A DNA stretch of 34,130 nucleotides from Synechococcus sp. BS301-5m-G53 (GTDB lineage Bacteria > Cyanobacteriota > Cyanobacteriia > PCC-6307 > Cyanobiaceae): positions 1 to 34,130 of the forward strand of contig JADHMX010000010.1 of assembly GCA_016779825.1 (NCBI GenBank), given 5' to 3'. Each line of letters begins with the position of its first letter. The first letter of the stretch is position 1. The notes beneath the pieces were generated by a model. It worked only from the letters and a program-made list of their open reading frames with translations, searched no databases and was not told where the DNA came from. Below, in pieces: positions 8,029-16,872 of this stretch. A program made the translations under genes and the position numbers.

Positions 8029-9609
8029 TCAGATCACCGTCACCAGGTCAAGGCTGGCACGGGCACGGGTGATCGCTGTGTAGAGCAGACGGCGCTGATG
8101 CTCAGCCGATGGTCCATCCTCCAGGGGATCAGGCCAGAGCACGATCACCCGCTCCGCCTCACTGCCCTGAGCCCGATGGATGGTGAGGGCGACCGCGGGC
8201 TCCAACCGCCGCAAACGGGCTGGATGCAAACGGCGCACCTCGAGCTGGCCTTCAGGGTCCACCACCTGGAACAACAGACGTCGTTCGGCGCCAGCACCGA
8301 TCACCACCCCGAGGTCACCATTGGCCAAGCCCAGTTCGGGTTGATTGCTGCCGCAGATCACCGGCAAACCGATAGGCCAACGTTCCACCTTGGCCGCTGC
8401 ATTGGCACCCAGCAGCGTGCGATGCACATCATCCAAACTCCATGGCCCCCGACGGCGTGGGCAGAGCAACAGGTCTTGCTCAAGGAGAGCGAACAAGGGC
8501 CGGGACTCCGCCATCAGCTCTTGGTCGGCACAGCGGTCGAGATCAACAGCCAGCTCCTGCAGTTGCTGGAGGCGCTGCATCCAGCGCTCCCGCACCAACG
8601 CAGGAAAACGACGCAGGGGACTGGGGTGCACCTGGAGATTGGCCTGTTCAGGCAAAGCGGCTAGATCCGCTGCAAAGGCCTGCAGATCCCCCTTGCGCAG
8701 CTTTTGGGCCACTTTTGCCAAGGCACCGCGATTGCGATAAGTGCGCTCGAGATGCACGGCGCCGGCACCGAAACGGGCGCGCACGTCGGGCTGCTGCAGT
8801 CGATGCCAGACCGCTCCACTGCCCACCGGCGGAAGCTGGGCTGGATCCCCCACCAACAGCAACCGACAACCGCTGGGCAACGCCTCCAGTAAGGCCTGGG
8901 TCAAAGCCAGATCCAGCATCGACATTTCATCGATCACCAGAAGATCCAGCTCCAAAGGACGCTGGCGGTGCCTGCCAAAGCCTCGGCTGCCGGCCTCCAA
9001 CCAGCGGTGAAGGGTGCTGCAGGGCAATGGGGCCCGCTGGGCCAGCACCGCCTCGCCCAGGCGCCGGGCCGCCTTGCCCGTGGGGGCCGCCAAACCGATT
9101 CGCAGGCCGGGGTGACGGGCTTCCGCCCGGGCCAGAACCTCCACCACCGTGCTGGTCTTGCCCGTGCCCGGGCCACCGCTGAGCAGCACAACCGACGCCT
9201 GATCCAGGGCGCGCACCGCGACGCACTGTTCGGCATTGAGACGATTCGACAGCTCGGGGGCGGCAGCATGGCCGGGTTTTGGAACGGGAGCGTGGGCTCG
9301 CTCCACCAGCGCATCCACCACCTGCTCCATGGCCTGCAACCAGCGGCGCCAGCCGATCCGGTCTCCCTGACGCAGCAGGGGGGACGCGTCCCCCTCCAGC
9401 CAACCACTGGCTTGGGCAACGGCCAGCCGTTCCGGCGTCAGCGCCACCGTCAATTCCCCCTGCTCCAAGGCCAGCACCAGATCGCGACTGAGCGCCTCCA
9501 ACTCCGGAGCATCGGTTTGGGGCGGAATCCGCCGCCGCAGCGCGGCATGCAAACCGGCAGTGAAGCTGGAGGGCCAAGCGCTGGTTGCCTGGGGCAGCAA
9601 GTCCGTCAT
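8029..9609 (-). CDS. recD: exodeoxyribonuclease V alpha subunit (RecD)
   Basis: Walker A LSGGPGTGKTST, Walker B LLVIDEMSMLD, LVGDPAQLPPVGSG, C-terminal TIHRAQGSEAERVIVLWP / LYTAITRAR; start MTDLLPQATSAW at 9609 overlaps the recB stop (ATGA). Confidence 0.93.
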   Translation of the reverse strand: MTDLLPQATSAWPSSFTAGLHAALRRRIPPQTDAPELEALSRDLVLALEQGELTVALTPERLAVAQASGWLEGDASPLLRQGDRIGWRRWLQAMEQVVDALVERAHAPVPKPGHAAAPELSNRLNAEQCVAVRALDQASVVLLSGGPGTGKTSTVVEVLARAEARHPGLRIGLAAPTGKAARRLGEAVLAQRAPLPCSTLHRWLEAGSRGFGRHRQRPLELDLLVIDEMSMLDLALTQALLEALPSGCRLLLVGDPAQLPPVGSGAVWHRLQQPDVRARFGAGAVHLERTYRNRGALAKVAQKLRKGDLQAFAADLAALPEQANLQVHPSPLRRFPALVRERWMQRLQQLQELAVDLDRCADQELMAESRPLFALLEQDLLLCPRRRGPWSLDDVHRTLLGANAAAKVERWPIGLPVICGSNQPELGLANGDLGVVIGAGAERRLLFQVVDPEGQLEVRRLHPARLRRLEPAVALTIHRAQGSEAERVIVLWPDPLEDGPSAEHQRRLLYTAITRARASLDLVTVI

Positions 9610-12600
9610 GCCGCCACCTCCCCCAGGGCACGATCCAGGGCGGCGATGCGGTTGAGCGGCACGGGTTCGACGATGCGCCCAGGGCCGACATCGCCCTCGG
9701 AGGACGCCCCCACCGATCCGGGCATCCCCCTCAGGAAGCAGTAGACGTAGCCCCCCAGATGCTGATCCGGGTCGTAATCCGGCAACCGCCAACGCAGATG
9801 GCGATGCAGGGCCACGAGGTAGAGGTGGGCCTGCAGGGGGTAGTGATGGTGCAGCATCTGCTCCTCCATCGCCTCCTGGGAGTAGTGATGCGGACCGCAC
9901 AATCCCGGCTCAGTCCCAGTGCGCCGCTCACCGATCCAGTTGCTCTTCCAATCAAGAACCCACCAGCGCTTGTTTTGGGGGTCCTGAAACACCAGATCGA
10001 TCGAGCCGGTGAGAAACCCGCGGCTGTTGATCGATAACGACGCCAGAGCAGGGCTGTAGGAGCGGCCAAAACGGGCTTGGGCATCACAGCCGAAGGCGGC
10101 GACCAGATCAGCGGTGCGCACGTGCTGCACCGGCAGATCAAAACTGAGTTCAGGCAGGCGCTGGTCTGGCCCCAGCTGATCCAGCGACAACGTCCCCAGC
10201 GGTCCCCCCAAGGGCGTCTGCAGCACCTGCTCCAGACCCATCAGCACATCGTTCTGCAGGTCGAGATCGAGGCCCGCTCGCCGTAACTCAGCGGCGACCA
10301 GGTCGAGCCGCTGGCTGGGCTCCGTGGCCTCCGCAGCGGAAAAGGGGATTTGTTCGAGGATCCTGTGCAGACAGTCCCCCGCTCCGGCCCCACGGGGGAA
10401 GGCCGCCAGCGGCCCCGTCTCGGACCACACCGGTCTGGGACCCGCCAAGAGCGATTCCTCAGCCCCGGGATCGCGATCGCGACCCCGTTCATGCAGCTGA
10501 ACGTCGTCGGATGAGGCAATCCAGGCCGAGTAACTGGCCCGTCCCCAACTGCGGTCGATGCGCTTGGGGATCGCACCGAGGGCCAGCGGCTCCGCCGCCA
10601 GCGGAGGCCGCCAACGCTTGCCGATGGGCAGACTCTCGGCCAGGACATCGATGCTGATCGGCACCTTTCGCTCCTCCAGGGCCTCGCTCAGCCGCTCATC
10701 GGTGAGGCTCTCGATTGCGTCTCCAGCGGCCTCAGCACCGAACAGCCAGGCCGGCAAGGGCGAATCCTCCTGGCCGTTGGCCCTGGCCCAGATCAGGATC
10801 AGCTGGGATTGGGCTCGGGTCACGGCGACATAAGCCAGCCGCTCGGCCTCGGCCGCAGCCTCCTGCTGCGCCTGTTGCACCGCCTGCCAGCCCTCCCCCC
10901 AGTGGACATCCACCCGCACCAGGCACTCCCCAGAGCGGGGGTCACGCCAGAGCGGACCGGACACGGCTGGGGGCGACTGCCAAAGGTATGGGCAGATCAC
11001 CACCGGATATTCGAGCCCCTTACTGCGGTGAACAGTCACCACAGCAATGGCGCTATCCGCCTGATCACTGTGGGGCTGGCGGGCATCCGGCACCGGCTGG
11101 ATGGGATGCAACCGCTCCCGCCGCAACCAATCCGCCGCAGTGGCCACATCCAGCCCCTGGCGGTGCATCGCCTCCTGCACCAGCCGCGCCGCCTGCTGCA
11201 GATCCCCCAGCATTCGGCCCCGCTCCGACAGACCCGCCATCTGTTCACCCTTCAGCAGATCGGCCAGCGCCCCGAGCAGGCCCAGGCGCGGCATCGCCTC
11301 AGCCAAACCCCGCAACTGCAGCGCCAGCTGATCCAGCAGGCCCGGCTCCAGGGCATCGGGAGCGACGTTCATCAGTCCCGAGCAGGCCAGCAGGCGCAGG
11401 CGACCGTCATCACCCGGCTCCGCCAGGGCATCCAGGAACCACTGCAGCAGCAACGCGGCTTCACTGTCGAGCACATCCCCCTGGGTCACCAGGCGGGTGG
11501 GGAGACCGCAGGCACCCAAGGCGCGGCGCAGGTCTTCCGCCTGTTGATGGCGACTCACCAGCACACAGAGATCTGCTGGGCTGAGGTCCTCCCGTTGTTG
11601 CAGTTGCTCCAGCACCATCGCGGCGAGCCGCTGGGGCAGCTCTTCCTCCAGAGAAGTGCGGCTGGAGGGCGCCTCGGTGGAGAGCAACAGCAGTTGCAAC
11701 GCCGGGGCGTCCTGCGGTGGGGTGGCGGAGCTGCGGGGCTGCACCGCGGGCACTGGAAGTTCAGAGCGGGGGAGACCCGGAGCCATCAAGCCGTTCAACC
11801 CCTCCATCAGCGGTGCCGTTGTGCGGAAGTTGTCGAGCAGGTGATCGATCCGCTCCACCTGATCACGCGCTGCCATGTAAGTGGCCAGATCACCGCCCCG
11901 GAAGCGGTAGATCGCCTGCTTGGGATCCCCGACCATCAGCAGCAGATGGCGTTCACCACCACCAAAGGCGCGCTGCAACAGACGCCACTGCACAGGGTCT
12001 GTGTCCTGAAACTCATCCACCATCACAGCCCGGTAGCGCTGTTGCAGGGGCGCAAGCCAGGCGACGTCACCATCACCAGGGTCCATGGCGGCCAACAGAC
12101 CGCCAAAGGTGATCACACCGCGACGGCGGCGACGGCGGTCCAGCTCCTGCAAGCCCCGTTCCAGCAGGTACTGCCAGGTGTTCTCGATCGGGGCATCCCA
12201 AAGCGCTGCAACAGCGGCCTGCAAAGCCGGCGTCACCAGGCTGGGGTCGGTTTCACCGCACTTGCGCGCGACCTTGCACCAACTGCCGGGATGGAAGTAC
12301 TCCTTCAGCGGCTTCTCACGGGCTGCAATCTCCAGCAGCGATGGCACTGAGGCCTGCCCATTCAGCCACTGGTTGATCTGCGCGCAACGATCGCTCTTGG
12401 GCTTGGCGGAGTAGGGGGTGGTGGGCCCATAGCCCTGGGCTTTCCACTGCTCTGCCGCCTGACGGAACCCGGCATCCAGGGCGGCATGGTCCCGATGCCA
12501 GAGCGGGACGAAGTCGTTCCAAAGCTGGGACAGCCAGTGGTCCAGCTGTGGGGCGAGAGCCTGATCCAGATCGATGGCCGTTTCAATGGCCCTGAAGCGA

Positions 12601-13214
12601 GGCTGTTGTTCGCCATCAAGTTGTGCCAACCCCCTGCGCAGGGCCTGCGGCGAGAGGCCGCGTTGACGCAACCCCTTGAGCTGATCCGGCGGCAGGCTCA
12701 GCAGCTCCTGTTGCCAGAGGTCCTGCACCACCTCGGCCTGAAGCGCAGTGGCATCGGTGTCCAGCTGGGGCTCCATCGCCGCAGCATTACTGAGGGCAAG
12801 ACGGCGAAGACTGCGGCGGCAAAAGCCATGGATGGTGGTGATGTCGGCCCGATCCAACTGCTCCAGGGCCACCAACAGGCGCCGTATCCACCGCTGACGC
12901 GCCTCCCCGGGCTGCGACCCCGCCAGCCAATGCGCCAGAACGGGGTCCGGGGCGCAGGCCTCCAGCCCCTGCTCCAGTTGCTCGAGGCCCTGCAATGCCT
13001 GTTGCAGCCGCTGGCCGATGCGGGAGCACAGCTCTTCGGCCGCCGCATCGGTGAAGGTCACCACCAACAAGGCCTCGAGAGCGTGGTCGGCCTCCGTGAT
13101 CAGCCGCAGGCAGAGATGCGCCAGGGCAAAAGTTTTGCCGGTGCCAGCGCTGGCCTCGAGCAGGCGGACCCCAGGGCCGAGGGGGTAGGTGTTGGCATCG
13201 AAGCGCTGAGCCAT
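9606..13214 (-). CDS. recB: exodeoxyribonuclease V beta subunit (RecB)
   Basis: 1202 aa; EASAGTGKTFALAHL, VMVDEFQDTDPVQW, VMVGDPKQAIYRFRGGD, TVHRSKGLEYPVVICPYLW, C-terminal nuclease core GSIDLVFQ...VLDWKSNW. Confidence 0.95.
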   Translation of the reverse strand: MAQRFDANTYPLGPGVRLLEASAGTGKTFALAHLCLRLITEADHALEALLVVTFTDAAAEELCSRIGQRLQQALQGLEQLEQGLEACAPDPVLAHWLAGSQPGEARQRWIRRLLVALEQLDRADITTIHGFCRRSLRRLALSNAAAMEPQLDTDATALQAEVVQDLWQQELLSLPPDQLKGLRQRGLSPQALRRGLAQLDGEQQPRFRAIETAIDLDQALAPQLDHWLSQLWNDFVPLWHRDHAALDAGFRQAAEQWKAQGYGPTTPYSAKPKSDRCAQINQWLNGQASVPSLLEIAAREKPLKEYFHPGSWCKVARKCGETDPSLVTPALQAAVAALWDAPIENTWQYLLERGLQELDRRRRRRGVITFGGLLAAMDPGDGDVAWLAPLQQRYRAVMVDEFQDTDPVQWRLLQRAFGGGERHLLLMVGDPKQAIYRFRGGDLATYMAARDQVERIDHLLDNFRTTAPLMEGLNGLMAPGLPRSELPVPAVQPRSSATPPQDAPALQLLLLSTEAPSSRTSLEEELPQRLAAMVLEQLQQREDLSPADLCVLVSRHQQAEDLRRALGACGLPTRLVTQGDVLDSEAALLLQWFLDALAEPGDDGRLRLLACSGLMNVAPDALEPGLLDQLALQLRGLAEAMPRLGLLGALADLLKGEQMAGLSERGRMLGDLQQAARLVQEAMHRQGLDVATAADWLRRERLHPIQPVPDARQPHSDQADSAIAVVTVHRSKGLEYPVVICPYLWQSPPAVSGPLWRDPRSGECLVRVDVHWGEGWQAVQQAQQEAAAEAERLAYVAVTRAQSQLILIWARANGQEDSPLPAWLFGAEAAGDAIESLTDERLSEALEERKVPISIDVLAESLPIGKRWRPPLAAEPLALGAIPKRIDRSWGRASYSAWIASSDDVQLHERGRDRDPGAEESLLAGPRPVWSETGPLAAFPRGAGAGDCLHRILEQIPFSAAEATEPSQRLDLVAAELRRAGLDLDLQNDVLMGLEQVLQTPLGGPLGTLSLDQLGPDQRLPELSFDLPVQHVRTADLVAAFGCDAQARFGRSYSPALASLSINSRGFLTGSIDLVFQDPQNKRWWVLDWKSNWIGERRTGTEPGLCGPHHYSQEAMEEQMLHHHYPLQAHLYLVALHRHLRWRLPDYDPDQHLGGYVYCFLRGMPGSVGASSEGDVGPGRIVEPVPLNRIAALDRALGEVAA

Positions 13215-13244
13215 CAGAGAAGTTTGATCGGCCCCAGCCTCAAA

Positions 13245-13360
13245 ACCAGTGTTAACTTCCGTGAAGCAGCCGGCGAAAGCTGCGAACTGGACTGGGTGCA
13301 GTCACACCCCAGGACAGAAGACGACCTGAGCGAGGGCCTGAAGAACCCTCGCTTTTTTTT
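13245..13360 (+). ncRNA. putative structured RNA / cis-regulatory leader ending in an intrinsic terminator
   Basis: No CDS on + strand; three consecutive predicted stems: GCAGC(13266-13270)/GCTGC(13279-13283), CTGGGTG...CACCCCAG (~13292-13312), and GCGAGGG/CCCTCGC + T8 terminator (13330-13360). Boundaries approximate. Confidence 0.45.
13330..13360 (+). terminator. Rho-independent terminator
   Basis: gcgaggg cctgaagaa ccctcgc tttttttt: perfect 7-bp GC-rich stem followed by 8 T. Confidence 0.9.
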
Positions 13361-13408
13361 GGGCTTGTTAACGGATGCAACTCAACCCTTGAGGGAACAG
13401 GGGCTTGC

Positions 13409-13630
13409 GTGGATGCGGTGCCAGCAGGGCCACAGCTTGGTGGAAGCCACCGGCCAGCTTTGTCCCCCGAACGTCGTCAGAAACTGGCCCAGCTGCTGGT
13501 GCGCAAAGCCGCTGCTGTCGAAAGCATCAGCGAGGAACATCGGGCCTACTTCTTCCGCAGACAGGCAGGTGATCCCGTCGTGATCTCCAAAGAACGCATG
13601 CGCGAAATGCTCGAGGAGCTCTTCGATTAA
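13409..13630 (+). CDS. hypothetical protein (73 aa), convergent with recC
   Basis: GTG start; SPERRQKLAQLLVRKAAAVESISEEHRAYFFRRQAGDPVVISKERMREMLEELFD is protein-like, whereas the overlapping minus ORF is not; 3' end overlaps recC stop by 4 nt. Confidence 0.55.
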   Translation: MDAVPAGPQLGGSHRPALSPERRQKLAQLLVRKAAAVESISEEHRAYFFRRQAGDPVVISKERMREMLEELFD

Positions 13631-16600
13631 CGCAGCTGTGCCAGAAGGGGGCCGTAGAGCAGCTGACACGCCTCCTGAAATCCGGCCTGATCCATCAAGT
13701 GATCCGCGGCGATCTCCGTGCCGAAGCAGAGCTGCATCACCGCAGTGGCCCCTTCCTCCTGCCAGGTCTTGCGAAATTCCTGCTCCCCCGTTCCCGGTTT
13801 GCGCTGGTCTTTGGCCACCATCTGCCAGCCGCTCTTCGGAGGAACCGGCCAGCACTGCTCCCGCCCCTGGCGCGACAGACGATCAAGCTGGTGCAGCTGA
13901 TCCTTGGCTTCAGCCGCTGGCAATGCTGCCCAGCGCAGGTGCACCTCGGCGCCGGCAACACGGGTGCTGCGGGCCACCACCGCTGAACCGCCTGCAGGAG
14001 TGAGACCCTCAGCGCACAGCAACAGATGCTGCAACCAACCGCGCATCACCGCCGCGGCCGTGAGCATGCCGGGCTGCACCACCACCTGGGTGTCACCGGC
14101 GAAGAGCAGGGGCATCGGCAGACCGGCGAGCACAGGCAGCTCACGCCGGCAGGGCCCGAGCGATGCCAGCTGCCGTTGCAGGGCCTGCCAACGCTGCTGC
14201 AGTTCCTCCTGCTCAAGAGCAGCTCCAGCCCCCGCCGGCAACACACCCTGACCGGCCAGCAACGCCGGCCAATCCGGTGCCGATCCAAGAATGAATTGCT
14301 CCTCAAGGTCGTGGTTGAGCAGCAGATAGCGCTGCAGGCCCTCCAACTCGAGCCCCTCGAGATCCTCCACCGCCTCAATGCCCTCTCCTGGCCTCAAGCC
14401 GCGTGCATGCAACCAGGCTTTCTGGGGCTGCTGCATCCAGGCCAGCAACGCTTCAGGGTCCAGGGACCGGTCGTCATCATCACCATCCATCGCCTGATCC
14501 GCAGCGAGCGGTTCACGCCAGAGCGTTGACCAGGCCAGCCCAAGGGCATCCTGGGCCGATGCTGGAGCGCGATCCAGACAGCGCCGGGCTTCCAGTTGAC
14601 GCCGATCACAACTGAGCGGCGCCTCGGACCTGAAGTTCTCGCGGGAGAGGGGGTTGGCCGCCGGCGTGATCAGCAACCCCTCCGTGGAAGCACCAGCCCG
14701 TTGCAACTGCTCCTGCAGCACGGCAAACCACTGTTCCACCGGAGCAGCAGGCGGCTGGGGCTCACCGGTGCGCTCCAGCCGTGCGCACCAGCTGATCAGC
14801 AGATGACGGCGTGCCGACATCAAGGCTTCCAGCAGCACATAGCGATCCTGGTCGCTGCTGCGGGGATCCCCCAAGCGCCGCTGCTGCTCGAGCAGATGAA
14901 AGCCAGGACGGCGGCTCGGGCGCGGGAAGTCGGCGCTGTCGAGGCCCATCAAGACGACCACCTTGTGAGGAATCGCCCGCATCGGCTCCAGGGCGCTGAT
15001 GGTGAGGGCTCCACTGCGGTGACCGAAGCGGCCGCTGTCCACCGACAACGCCTCCTGCAGCACCTCCAAGGCCACGGCTGCATCGAGGTCCAGGGGGCAA
15101 TCACTGGCCCGCAGCCGCCACTCCTCCAGCGCCGCCGCCCAGCTCTGCGACTCGTCGGCCCATCCCCCGCCATCAGCGAACAGTTCCTGCAACAGGGTCT
15201 GCAGCAACGACACCCAGCCATGGCACGGCCGGGGCTGTCGCAGGCGATCGAGCATGCGGGCCAGACGGTCCAGCAGCGTCCACCAACGCACCAGGCGATC
15301 GGGATCCAGCTCCTGCTGGAACGGTGCCGCCCCTGCCGGAGCCAGCCCCGGCTCCACCGGCAGCACCAGCCCCAGCAGCCAACGGTCGAGACACCAGCGC
15401 AGGCTGTGCACCTCATCACCGCCCCGCTCACGGGCATCCAACCCCCAGCGAAAACCGCTGCGTTGCAGCGTTTGGGTGATCAGCACCGCCTCCTCCGCCG
15501 TCAGGCCCTGCTGACCCTGCAGGGCAGGGTTGGCCAGGAGACGTTCCAGCCCCGTGGCGGTGAGGCGTGTGGCGGCCAGCTCCAACAGCGTGAACATTGC
15601 CATCGACAACCCCGGACTGCTCTGCTGACTGCGGTCGGTGAGGCGCCAGGGCAAATCGACACCAATGGCCGCCGTGTCGTTGAACACGGAGCTGAGCAGC
15701 GGTGCATAGCGCTCAATCTGCGGCGTCATCACCAGCACGTCGCGTGGGGCGAGATCGGGATCGGCCGCCAGCCATTGCAGGATGCGATCCCGCACCAGTT
15801 GAACCTCCCGCCAAGGTCCCGGTGCCGCCTGAAACAACAGCGACTGATCGCTTGAGGAACGGCGTAGTTCGGGGACGCTCTCGGCATCCACCAGCTGCTG
15901 CTGAAGCTGATCCAGCAGGGTGGGCTGACGCTCTTCCGCCGCGGCGATCTGCAGGGAGCCTGCAAACAGATCCCCCTCGCGTCGCTCCCCGAGCTGCGCT
16001 TCACCGGAGCCCTCCAGCAACTGCTGAAATTCAGCCCCCATCCGCCCGAGAACGGCCTCCAAACGCGGCGCCTCCGCCAACCAGCCCCCATCTGGCGGGA
16101 CCAGCCAGTCGTCCCCGAGCGAGGCACGCCGATTGGCGCAGCGCTGCCACAAATCCGGACAGGGGGTGAGCAAGTAGATCTCCACCTCAAGCAGGCCGGA
16201 CAAGGCCTGGATCAGATCCACCTGCACCGGTGCCAAAGCACTGATACCAAACAGCCGCAACCGCTCTGGCAGCAGGGCCGGATTAACCTCTCCACGCCGG
16301 AGACGATCGACGGCCTCACGCACCTGCAGGCCAAAGGGAGCCCGGGGCAGCCGTTGGGCCAGCAGGCGCCAGAGCACGGGCTGCCAGTCATCATCAGGCC
16401 GCGGCCGTTTCCATTGCTCCAGTTGATCGGGCCGATAGAGGGCGTAATCGTCCATGGCGTCGGCGATGGAGCGCGCCAGCTGCCAGCGATCCCGCGTCAA
16501 CCCCGAGGCGGTTCCCTCCCGCTGGGCCAGCCAGACCTGAAGCGGCTGGGCGACCGGCTGCTCCAACAGCTCCGGCAGCAGCTCGAGCACAGCCCACACC

Positions 16601-16872
16601 AGCTGACCCGCCCGCCAGGGATCGTCCTCCTGGGCTGGGAGGTGCAGCACCTGGCGCACCAGCTGCCGCAGGCGACTGCCTGGGAACGGGAAACGCACCA
16701 GGGAGCTGATGCCATTGGCTGCGGCCAGCTGTTCCCCCAACCATCGACTGGTGGGCCAGGTGTTGACCATCACCTCCACCGTCTCAAGGGGGCCCGGCTG
16801 CTGCTCGATCAACTGACGGGAGAGCAAGCGAGCCAGGAATTCAGCCCTGTTGCTTCGATAAACCGTCAGCAA
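13627..16872 (-). CDS. recC: exodeoxyribonuclease V gamma subunit (RecC)
   Basis: 1081 aa starting MLTVYRSNRAEFLARLLSRQL...VEVMVNTWPTSRWLGEQLAAANGISSLVRFPFPGSRLRQLV: typical RecC N-terminus; location beside recB/recD. Confidence 0.93.
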   Translation of the reverse strand: MLTVYRSNRAEFLARLLSRQLIEQQPGPLETVEVMVNTWPTSRWLGEQLAAANGISSLVRFPFPGSRLRQLVRQVLHLPAQEDDPWRAGQLVWAVLELLPELLEQPVAQPLQVWLAQREGTASGLTRDRWQLARSIADAMDDYALYRPDQLEQWKRPRPDDDWQPVLWRLLAQRLPRAPFGLQVREAVDRLRRGEVNPALLPERLRLFGISALAPVQVDLIQALSGLLEVEIYLLTPCPDLWQRCANRRASLGDDWLVPPDGGWLAEAPRLEAVLGRMGAEFQQLLEGSGEAQLGERREGDLFAGSLQIAAAEERQPTLLDQLQQQLVDAESVPELRRSSSDQSLLFQAAPGPWREVQLVRDRILQWLAADPDLAPRDVLVMTPQIERYAPLLSSVFNDTAAIGVDLPWRLTDRSQQSSPGLSMAMFTLLELAATRLTATGLERLLANPALQGQQGLTAEEAVLITQTLQRSGFRWGLDARERGGDEVHSLRWCLDRWLLGLVLPVEPGLAPAGAAPFQQELDPDRLVRWWTLLDRLARMLDRLRQPRPCHGWVSLLQTLLQELFADGGGWADESQSWAAALEEWRLRASDCPLDLDAAVALEVLQEALSVDSGRFGHRSGALTISALEPMRAIPHKVVVLMGLDSADFPRPSRRPGFHLLEQQRRLGDPRSSDQDRYVLLEALMSARRHLLISWCARLERTGEPQPPAAPVEQWFAVLQEQLQRAGASTEGLLITPAANPLSRENFRSEAPLSCDRRQLEARRCLDRAPASAQDALGLAWSTLWREPLAADQAMDGDDDDRSLDPEALLAWMQQPQKAWLHARGLRPGEGIEAVEDLEGLELEGLQRYLLLNHDLEEQFILGSAPDWPALLAGQGVLPAGAGAALEQEELQQRWQALQRQLASLGPCRRELPVLAGLPMPLLFAGDTQVVVQPGMLTAAAVMRGWLQHLLLCAEGLTPAGGSAVVARSTRVAGAEVHLRWAALPAAEAKDQLHQLDRLSRQGREQCWPVPPKSGWQMVAKDQRKPGTGEQEFRKTWQEEGATAVMQLCFGTEIAADHLMDQAGFQEACQLLYGPLLAQLR

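Follow-up and report, generated by a model that had tools for sequence, protein, structure and literature searches.

We present evidence that positions 13262 to 13360 on the + strand of the window (the whole stretch analysed, 34,130 nucleotides of contig JADHMX010000010.1 of Synechococcus sp. BS301-5m-G53) are likely to be a free-standing small RNA (sRNA) gene, belonging to a family dispersed within one marine Synechococcus genus, whose product probably acts in trans. Such a gene best explains the conservation, covariation, dispersal and non-coding character of the element, and brings with it a predicted promoter, a predicted transcript and a putative action in trans. Marine Synechococcus are among the most abundant phototrophs, and their post-transcriptional regulators are few and mostly without an assigned function. 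A family that covaries strongly, shares one exposed motif universally and occupies about eleven distinct loci offers a concrete object for experiment, and throughout one clade a copy has kept its place within the recombination-repair locus.

The host genome (G000), that of an uncultured marine Synechococcus, comprises 114 contigs and is 79% complete. The sRNA unit lies on the + strand in the gap between recB (9606 to 13214) and recC (13627 to 16872), both of which are on the − strand. The preliminary description had placed the element in the recBCD locus, divergent from recB, and the best NCBIfam matches agree for both genes (TIGR00609 for recB, E = 1.8e-174; TIGR01450 for recC, E = 1e-149), each match being below the curated equivalog cut-off.

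Upstream of the RNA is a −10-like element, TGTTAACTT (13250 to 13258, +), composed of TAACTT at 13253 to 13258 and an extended TG at 13250 to 13251, which from its sequence is a candidate promoter; a promoter scan of the window element found no sigma-70 −35/−10 pair. The sRNA gene itself is about 99 nt long, scores 105.8 bits against model R3 (see below) and has a predicted transcription start site (TSS) at approximately 13262 to 13265. Three successive stems had been proposed for this gap, at 13266 to 13283, at 13292 to 13312 and as a terminator at 13330 to 13360, and all three are found at these positions. Hairpin 1 pairs GCAGC with GCTGC (13266 to 13283, +; pair probability 0.98). Hairpin 2 has the core CTGGGTG/CACCCCAG (13292 to 13312), which a CTG/CAG extension lengthens to 13287 to 13317 (+), giving CUG-GA-CUGGGUG/CACCCCAG-GA-CAG around the apical loop CAGUCA (13299 to 13304). 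The outer pairs of the two hairpins have probabilities of 0.98 to 0.999 in the ensemble calculation. The following stretch, AAGACGACCT (13318 to 13327, +), which begins with AAGAC at 13318 to 13322, is mostly unpaired in the ensemble. The unit ends in an intrinsic terminator (13328 to 13360, +) with a 9-bp stem, GAGCGAGGG/CCCTCGCTT (13328 to 13354), a 9-nt loop, CCUGAAGAA, and a run of eight U (13353 to 13360); its stem is present in the minimum-energy structure. This hairpin was not called by a simple terminator scan, which accepts loops of at most 8 nt; the loop length is presumably the reason. Taken alone, this copy of the element is only slightly unusual in its fold, with a z score of −1.9 and 7 of 200 shuffles folding equally well, so the evidence from a single sequence is weak; the comparative evidence is strong.

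A 124-nt stretch (13238 to 13361) containing the element occurs in 13 of 34 genus genomes, counting that of the window, with 88 to 97% identity and always adjoining recB; in G002 the element occupies C1:1523097-1523204 (+), and the carriers with names are Synechococcus sp. AG-670-B23 and one uncultured Synechococcus MAG. The 105-nt core is 0.87 to 0.96 identical to that of the 12 relatives; third codon positions over the first 522 nt of recB show 0.70 to 0.81 identity in the relatives with alignable frames. Conservation peaks in two places: 12 of 13 positions are invariant in the −10-like element plus its flank, and 9 of 10 in ACGACCTGAG. Several outgroups (e.g. L086-L090) have recC directly after the recB start, with neither the RNA nor the small open reading frame (ORF) that follows it, and the insert of RNA plus ORF is therefore specific to the 13-genome clade. 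A coding reading of the element was considered and rejected: two crossing frames appear protein-like in one sequence, yet are interrupted among relatives. The frame beginning ATG AAG CAG is open in several genomes and has lost its start or gained stops in L007, L008, L011 and L012, while the second frame (..EAAGESCELDW..) contains a stop in L005 and in the alignment is truncated at its upstream end in L007, L011 and L012. These lost starts and acquired stops indicate that the element is not coding.

The family extends well beyond recB. We searched the 34 genus genomes with three models, R1 built from the 13 sequences at recB, R2 from a diverse set of seven members and R3 trained with non-recB loci included; E-values are per genome throughout. 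R1 identified three divergent members (G027:C9, 57 bits, E = 3e-11; G011:C50, 38.8 bits, 2e-6; G019:C1, 30.8 bits, 2e-4). A further member, in G005, was added through the shared-letter pattern GTCA...AGAAGAC...TTTTTT; the reversed control pattern gave five matches in the 34 genomes, so that a lone pattern match is no proof. R2 recovered members outside its training set in G006 (3e-7), G016 (2e-6), G032 (2e-5), a second G013 locus (6e-5) and G010 (0.001), and matched G020 weakly (0.12). R3 gives ten non-recB loci at E < 1e-9, these being loci on which it was trained. In total the family comprises 23 loci in 21 of the 34 genomes, about ten of its members being divergent and placed at unrelated loci. 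An R2 search of 400 genomes of the bacterial family found no match below 0.004 outside the genus, which serves as a specificity control. The structure was found in none of the viral contigs and phages searched, and 65 viral loci picked for AGAAGACGGATGAGG contained no R3 match. The contig pattern scan, from whose set near relatives were left out, yielded few records.

Two further groups of matches were discarded. We considered GGCCTGAAGAACC as a general terminator type; with the exception of the family's own copies and a single partial one in G015, its matches lack a T run behind them. Matches to the 124-nt query in other genera coincide with the 3′ end of the gene preceding secY and were read as chance; over 300 genomes they have E-values of 1e-4 to 0.005 per genome and share only 27 to 32 nt of hairpin 1. 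The resemblance of the end of this gene (rplO by frame) to hairpin 1 amounts to 83 to 89% identity and was seen in L045-L050 and L015, from other genera and G011.

The genomic neighborhoods of the divergent members are diverse. Those of G005 and G006 lie upstream of an AbrB-like regulator gene (PF14250), that of G019 between an ABC permease gene and an ABC ATPase gene, and that of G011 after one encoding an SdiA-regulated domain. The G027:C9 member is on an island whose phage-type integrase gene lies immediately at ssrA (tmRNA), and the members in G013, G016, G032, G020 and G010 are found amid small hypothetical or unrelated genes. The lack of anything in common among these neighbors argues for action in trans. 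We also observed that the G027:C9 island (L156:4416-8571) carries a second copy of the RNA, together with paired small membrane-protein-like genes.

The recB clade by itself varies too little to show covariation, and the structural comparison therefore draws on the divergent members. When 16 members were aligned to R2 (alignment A7), 89.8% of cells were paired and compensatory changes were present at 18 of 24 pairs (63 cells), counts that are inflated by fitting the alignment to the model. Shuffled controls gave 10.9 pairs and 24.5 cells, with none of 500 reaching the observed values, and slid partners gave 4 to 12 cells. A plain MAFFT alignment of seven members provides a cleaner figure, with compensatory changes at 10 of 24 pairs (22 cells); its shuffles average 10.0 cells, and of the 500 none reaches 22 cells and 11 reach the pair count. 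Across the 16 members compensatory changes affect all 10 model pairs of hairpin 2 and 6 of the 9 terminator pairs, the terminator being paired in 98.6% of cells. Hairpin 1 is paired in 92% of cells and shows G-C to G-U changes inside the recB-locus clade. The retention of base pairs between strongly diverged copies shows selection on RNA structure. For the structured RNA suspected in the preliminary description, comparison among relatives returned both conservation and covariation.

Some sequence motifs are also shared. AAGAC precedes the terminator in all 16 aligned members. A TAnnnT box lies upstream of hairpin 1 in every aligned member except G006 (TAAATA), in variants including TAACTT, TAAGTT, TAAGAT, TACATT and TAGGGT. 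The GUCA sequence in the loop of hairpin 2 is kept in the recB-locus copies, G027b, G011, G019, G005 and G006, and is not found in G016, G032, G010 or G020.

We propose that a promoter with the TAnnnT −10 box would give rise to a transcript of about 99 nt, which would fold into hairpin 1, hairpin 2 with its GUCA loop, the exposed AAGAC stretch and the intrinsic terminator. Of these parts AAGAC and its flanks are the only one both exposed and universal, as would fit a pairing or protein-binding site, and we regard the AAGACGACCT stretch as a candidate for such a site on sequence grounds. In Yfr1, too, two hairpins flank an unpaired, conserved motif, comparable to AAGAC here. Lying between hairpin 2 and the terminator, the AAGAC stretch would most likely contact either mRNAs, through short pairing, or a protein, and these contacts would bring about regulation of genes other than the neighbors. 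Of 1,084 start regions in 1.2 Mb of the relative G004, 58 contain a 7-base complement of this stretch, as compared with 50 ± 14 for shuffled sequences, in a test of low power that covers one genome with crude gene starts. There is thus no enrichment of complements at G004 starts, and action by pairing stays putative. It is probable that recB is not a special target of the sRNA. The recB-recC site and the 56-aa ORF would have been acquired jointly in the ancestor of the 13-species clade.

The ORF in question is relevant to the alternative that the element is a leader, in which a signal-dependent fold (an attenuator or riboswitch) terminates transcription or permits it to continue into the ORF. 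A small ORF downstream of the terminator had been noted as 73 aa long, starting at GTG 13409 after a gap of 49 nt; its position downstream holds, and the relatives and two distant homologues place the start instead at TTG 13460, giving 56 aa and a gap of about 100 nt. So defined, the ORF (13460 to 13630, +; GTG start in relatives) is a neighbor of the sRNA and lies outside the RNA. Its product (MSPERRQKLAQLLVRKAAAVES..EHRAYFFRRQ..) has no Pfam, NCBIfam or PHROG match above cut-off and is 81 to 89% identical within the clade and 63 to 67% identical in G011 and G012. Between the RNA and the ORF is a block conserved in the clade, GGATGCAACTCAACCCTTGAGGGAACAGGGGCTTG (13373 to 13407, +), reading GGATGCAAC..CTTGAGAGAACAGG and lying about 55 nt before the ORF start; it is shared with the G011 homologue (L068, upstream of 1501) and is probably the ORF's own upstream region.

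We consider control of this ORF by the RNA unlikely. The terminator and ORF do run in the same direction at a distance of about 100 nt, the two co-occur throughout the 13-species clade, and CAGTGTTAACTTC might pair with GAAGACGACCTG to close a three-way junction. Against this, the ORF homologues of G011 and G012 are at other loci with no such RNA directly upstream, the ORF is missing downstream of the other family members, and a conserved block of its own precedes the ORF. No compensatory change backs the P1-like CAGTGTTAACTTC/GAAGACGACCTG pairing, which in relatives loses two pairs without repair and whose 5′ arm reads as the −10-like TAnnnT in divergent members. Mutually exclusive folds had also been suggested, but when the terminator 3′ arm is blocked (13262 to 13361) hairpins 1 and 2 persist and the 5′ arm is not drawn into any stable structure; there is no competing antiterminator, and the cost is 12 kcal/mol. 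Attenuation, one of the two roles put forward in the preliminary description, is accordingly disfavored. The other, a free-standing sRNA, accords with the −10-like element, the covarying structure, the intrinsic terminator and the relatives at unrelated loci without the ORF. It is very improbable that the element is instead a dispersed repeat, or the remnant of a terminator-bearing mobile cassette, devoid of RNA function. Copies at many loci, one of them in the integrase island at ssrA, and the partial copy in G015 are what such a repeat would leave, but base pairs would not be expected to survive the strong sequence divergence among copies as they do, and the recB-locus copy stays at the same place across 13 species. 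That same stability, and the location on the opposite strand between recC and recB, would suit a cis element through which either the RNA itself or the act of transcribing it controls the divergent or overlapping recBC transcripts, by antisense action or interference. To this we likewise attach very little weight: other members are far from recBC, and the RNA and recB are non-overlapping, with some 50 nt separating the recB start codon from the predicted TSS downstream of it.

The free-standing sRNA favored here has no match among the Rfam families. At gathering threshold an Rfam 15 scan of the whole window returned only two tRNAs, and within 13100 to 13700 a scan at E up to 5 gave nothing but a meaningless viral snoRNA match. 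The cmscan comparison thus left the element without a known family, and scans of the divergent members' elements also returned none. A weak likeness of AGGACAGAAGACGACCTGAGC to the 3′ part of cobalamin riboswitches, noted in the preliminary description, is the only resemblance to these; cmscan does not return them at any E up to 5, and the covarying structure here is different. The Yfr sRNAs of marine picocyanobacteria, including Yfr1 (RF01116), are similarly intergenic, with their own −10 element and terminator (PMC1242208, PMC2190773). However, Yfr1 is 54 to 57 nt long, as against about 99 nt, differs in motif and locus and is not matched by the window region in Rfam, and the reported Yfr RNAs are at other loci (PMC1242208). 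Yfr103, as described in PMC5069720, is a multi-locus non-coding RNA (ncRNA) family with a conserved structure that occurs in both marine Synechococcus and Prochlorococcus; its Synechococcus CC9605 paralogues differ in length, at 290 to 328 nt against about 100 nt. The same paper lists 58 ncRNA TSSs for this strain, among which the present transcript may already be included, nameless. We found no paper describing an sRNA at the recB-recC locus in the open literature searched. As far as Rfam and the searched open papers show the family is new; in kind it would be an ordinary bacterial sRNA.

A wider picture can be offered only tentatively, in which an uncatalogued sRNA family disperses horizontally, has some members on integrase islands and others fixed in core loci, recB-recC among them, uses its universal AAGAC to regulate shared targets or bind a common protein, and possibly has distant relatives in the picocyanobacterial genus g34. 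With at least one member in an integrase island, the role of RNA regulators in the interplay of island and host becomes testable. The g34 element (..GCGAAAGCAAGACGCGCTGAGAGGGGTTGAGAGCCCTCTCATTTTTAT) was seen in seven genomes (L229, L230, L231, L234, L235, L237:1126-1249(−) and L241:737-855(−)). It matches R3 weakly (E down to 2e-5 per genome) and shares the AAGACG before the terminator but not the hairpin layout; a distant relationship to the sRNA family is possible.

A second sRNA-like element was noticed in five genomes of the genus, G022, G030, G023, G024 and G007 (L147:1501-1592(−), L148:1501-1610(+), L219:1501-1587(−), L150:1501-1603(−) and L143:1501-1579(+)). Three of these have the layout ..CACAATGA..GACCCCCAGCTCAGAACAGGGGGAA..TGCGTC..GGGAGGGACTAGGGAACCCTCCCTTTTTT and the other two the TGCGTC and terminator parts. 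The four of these elements that were scanned have no Rfam match, and this is probably another uncatalogued RNA. Near the second-type element in G024 is a guanidine-I riboswitch (RF00442, 87 bits; L150:1051-1151(−)).
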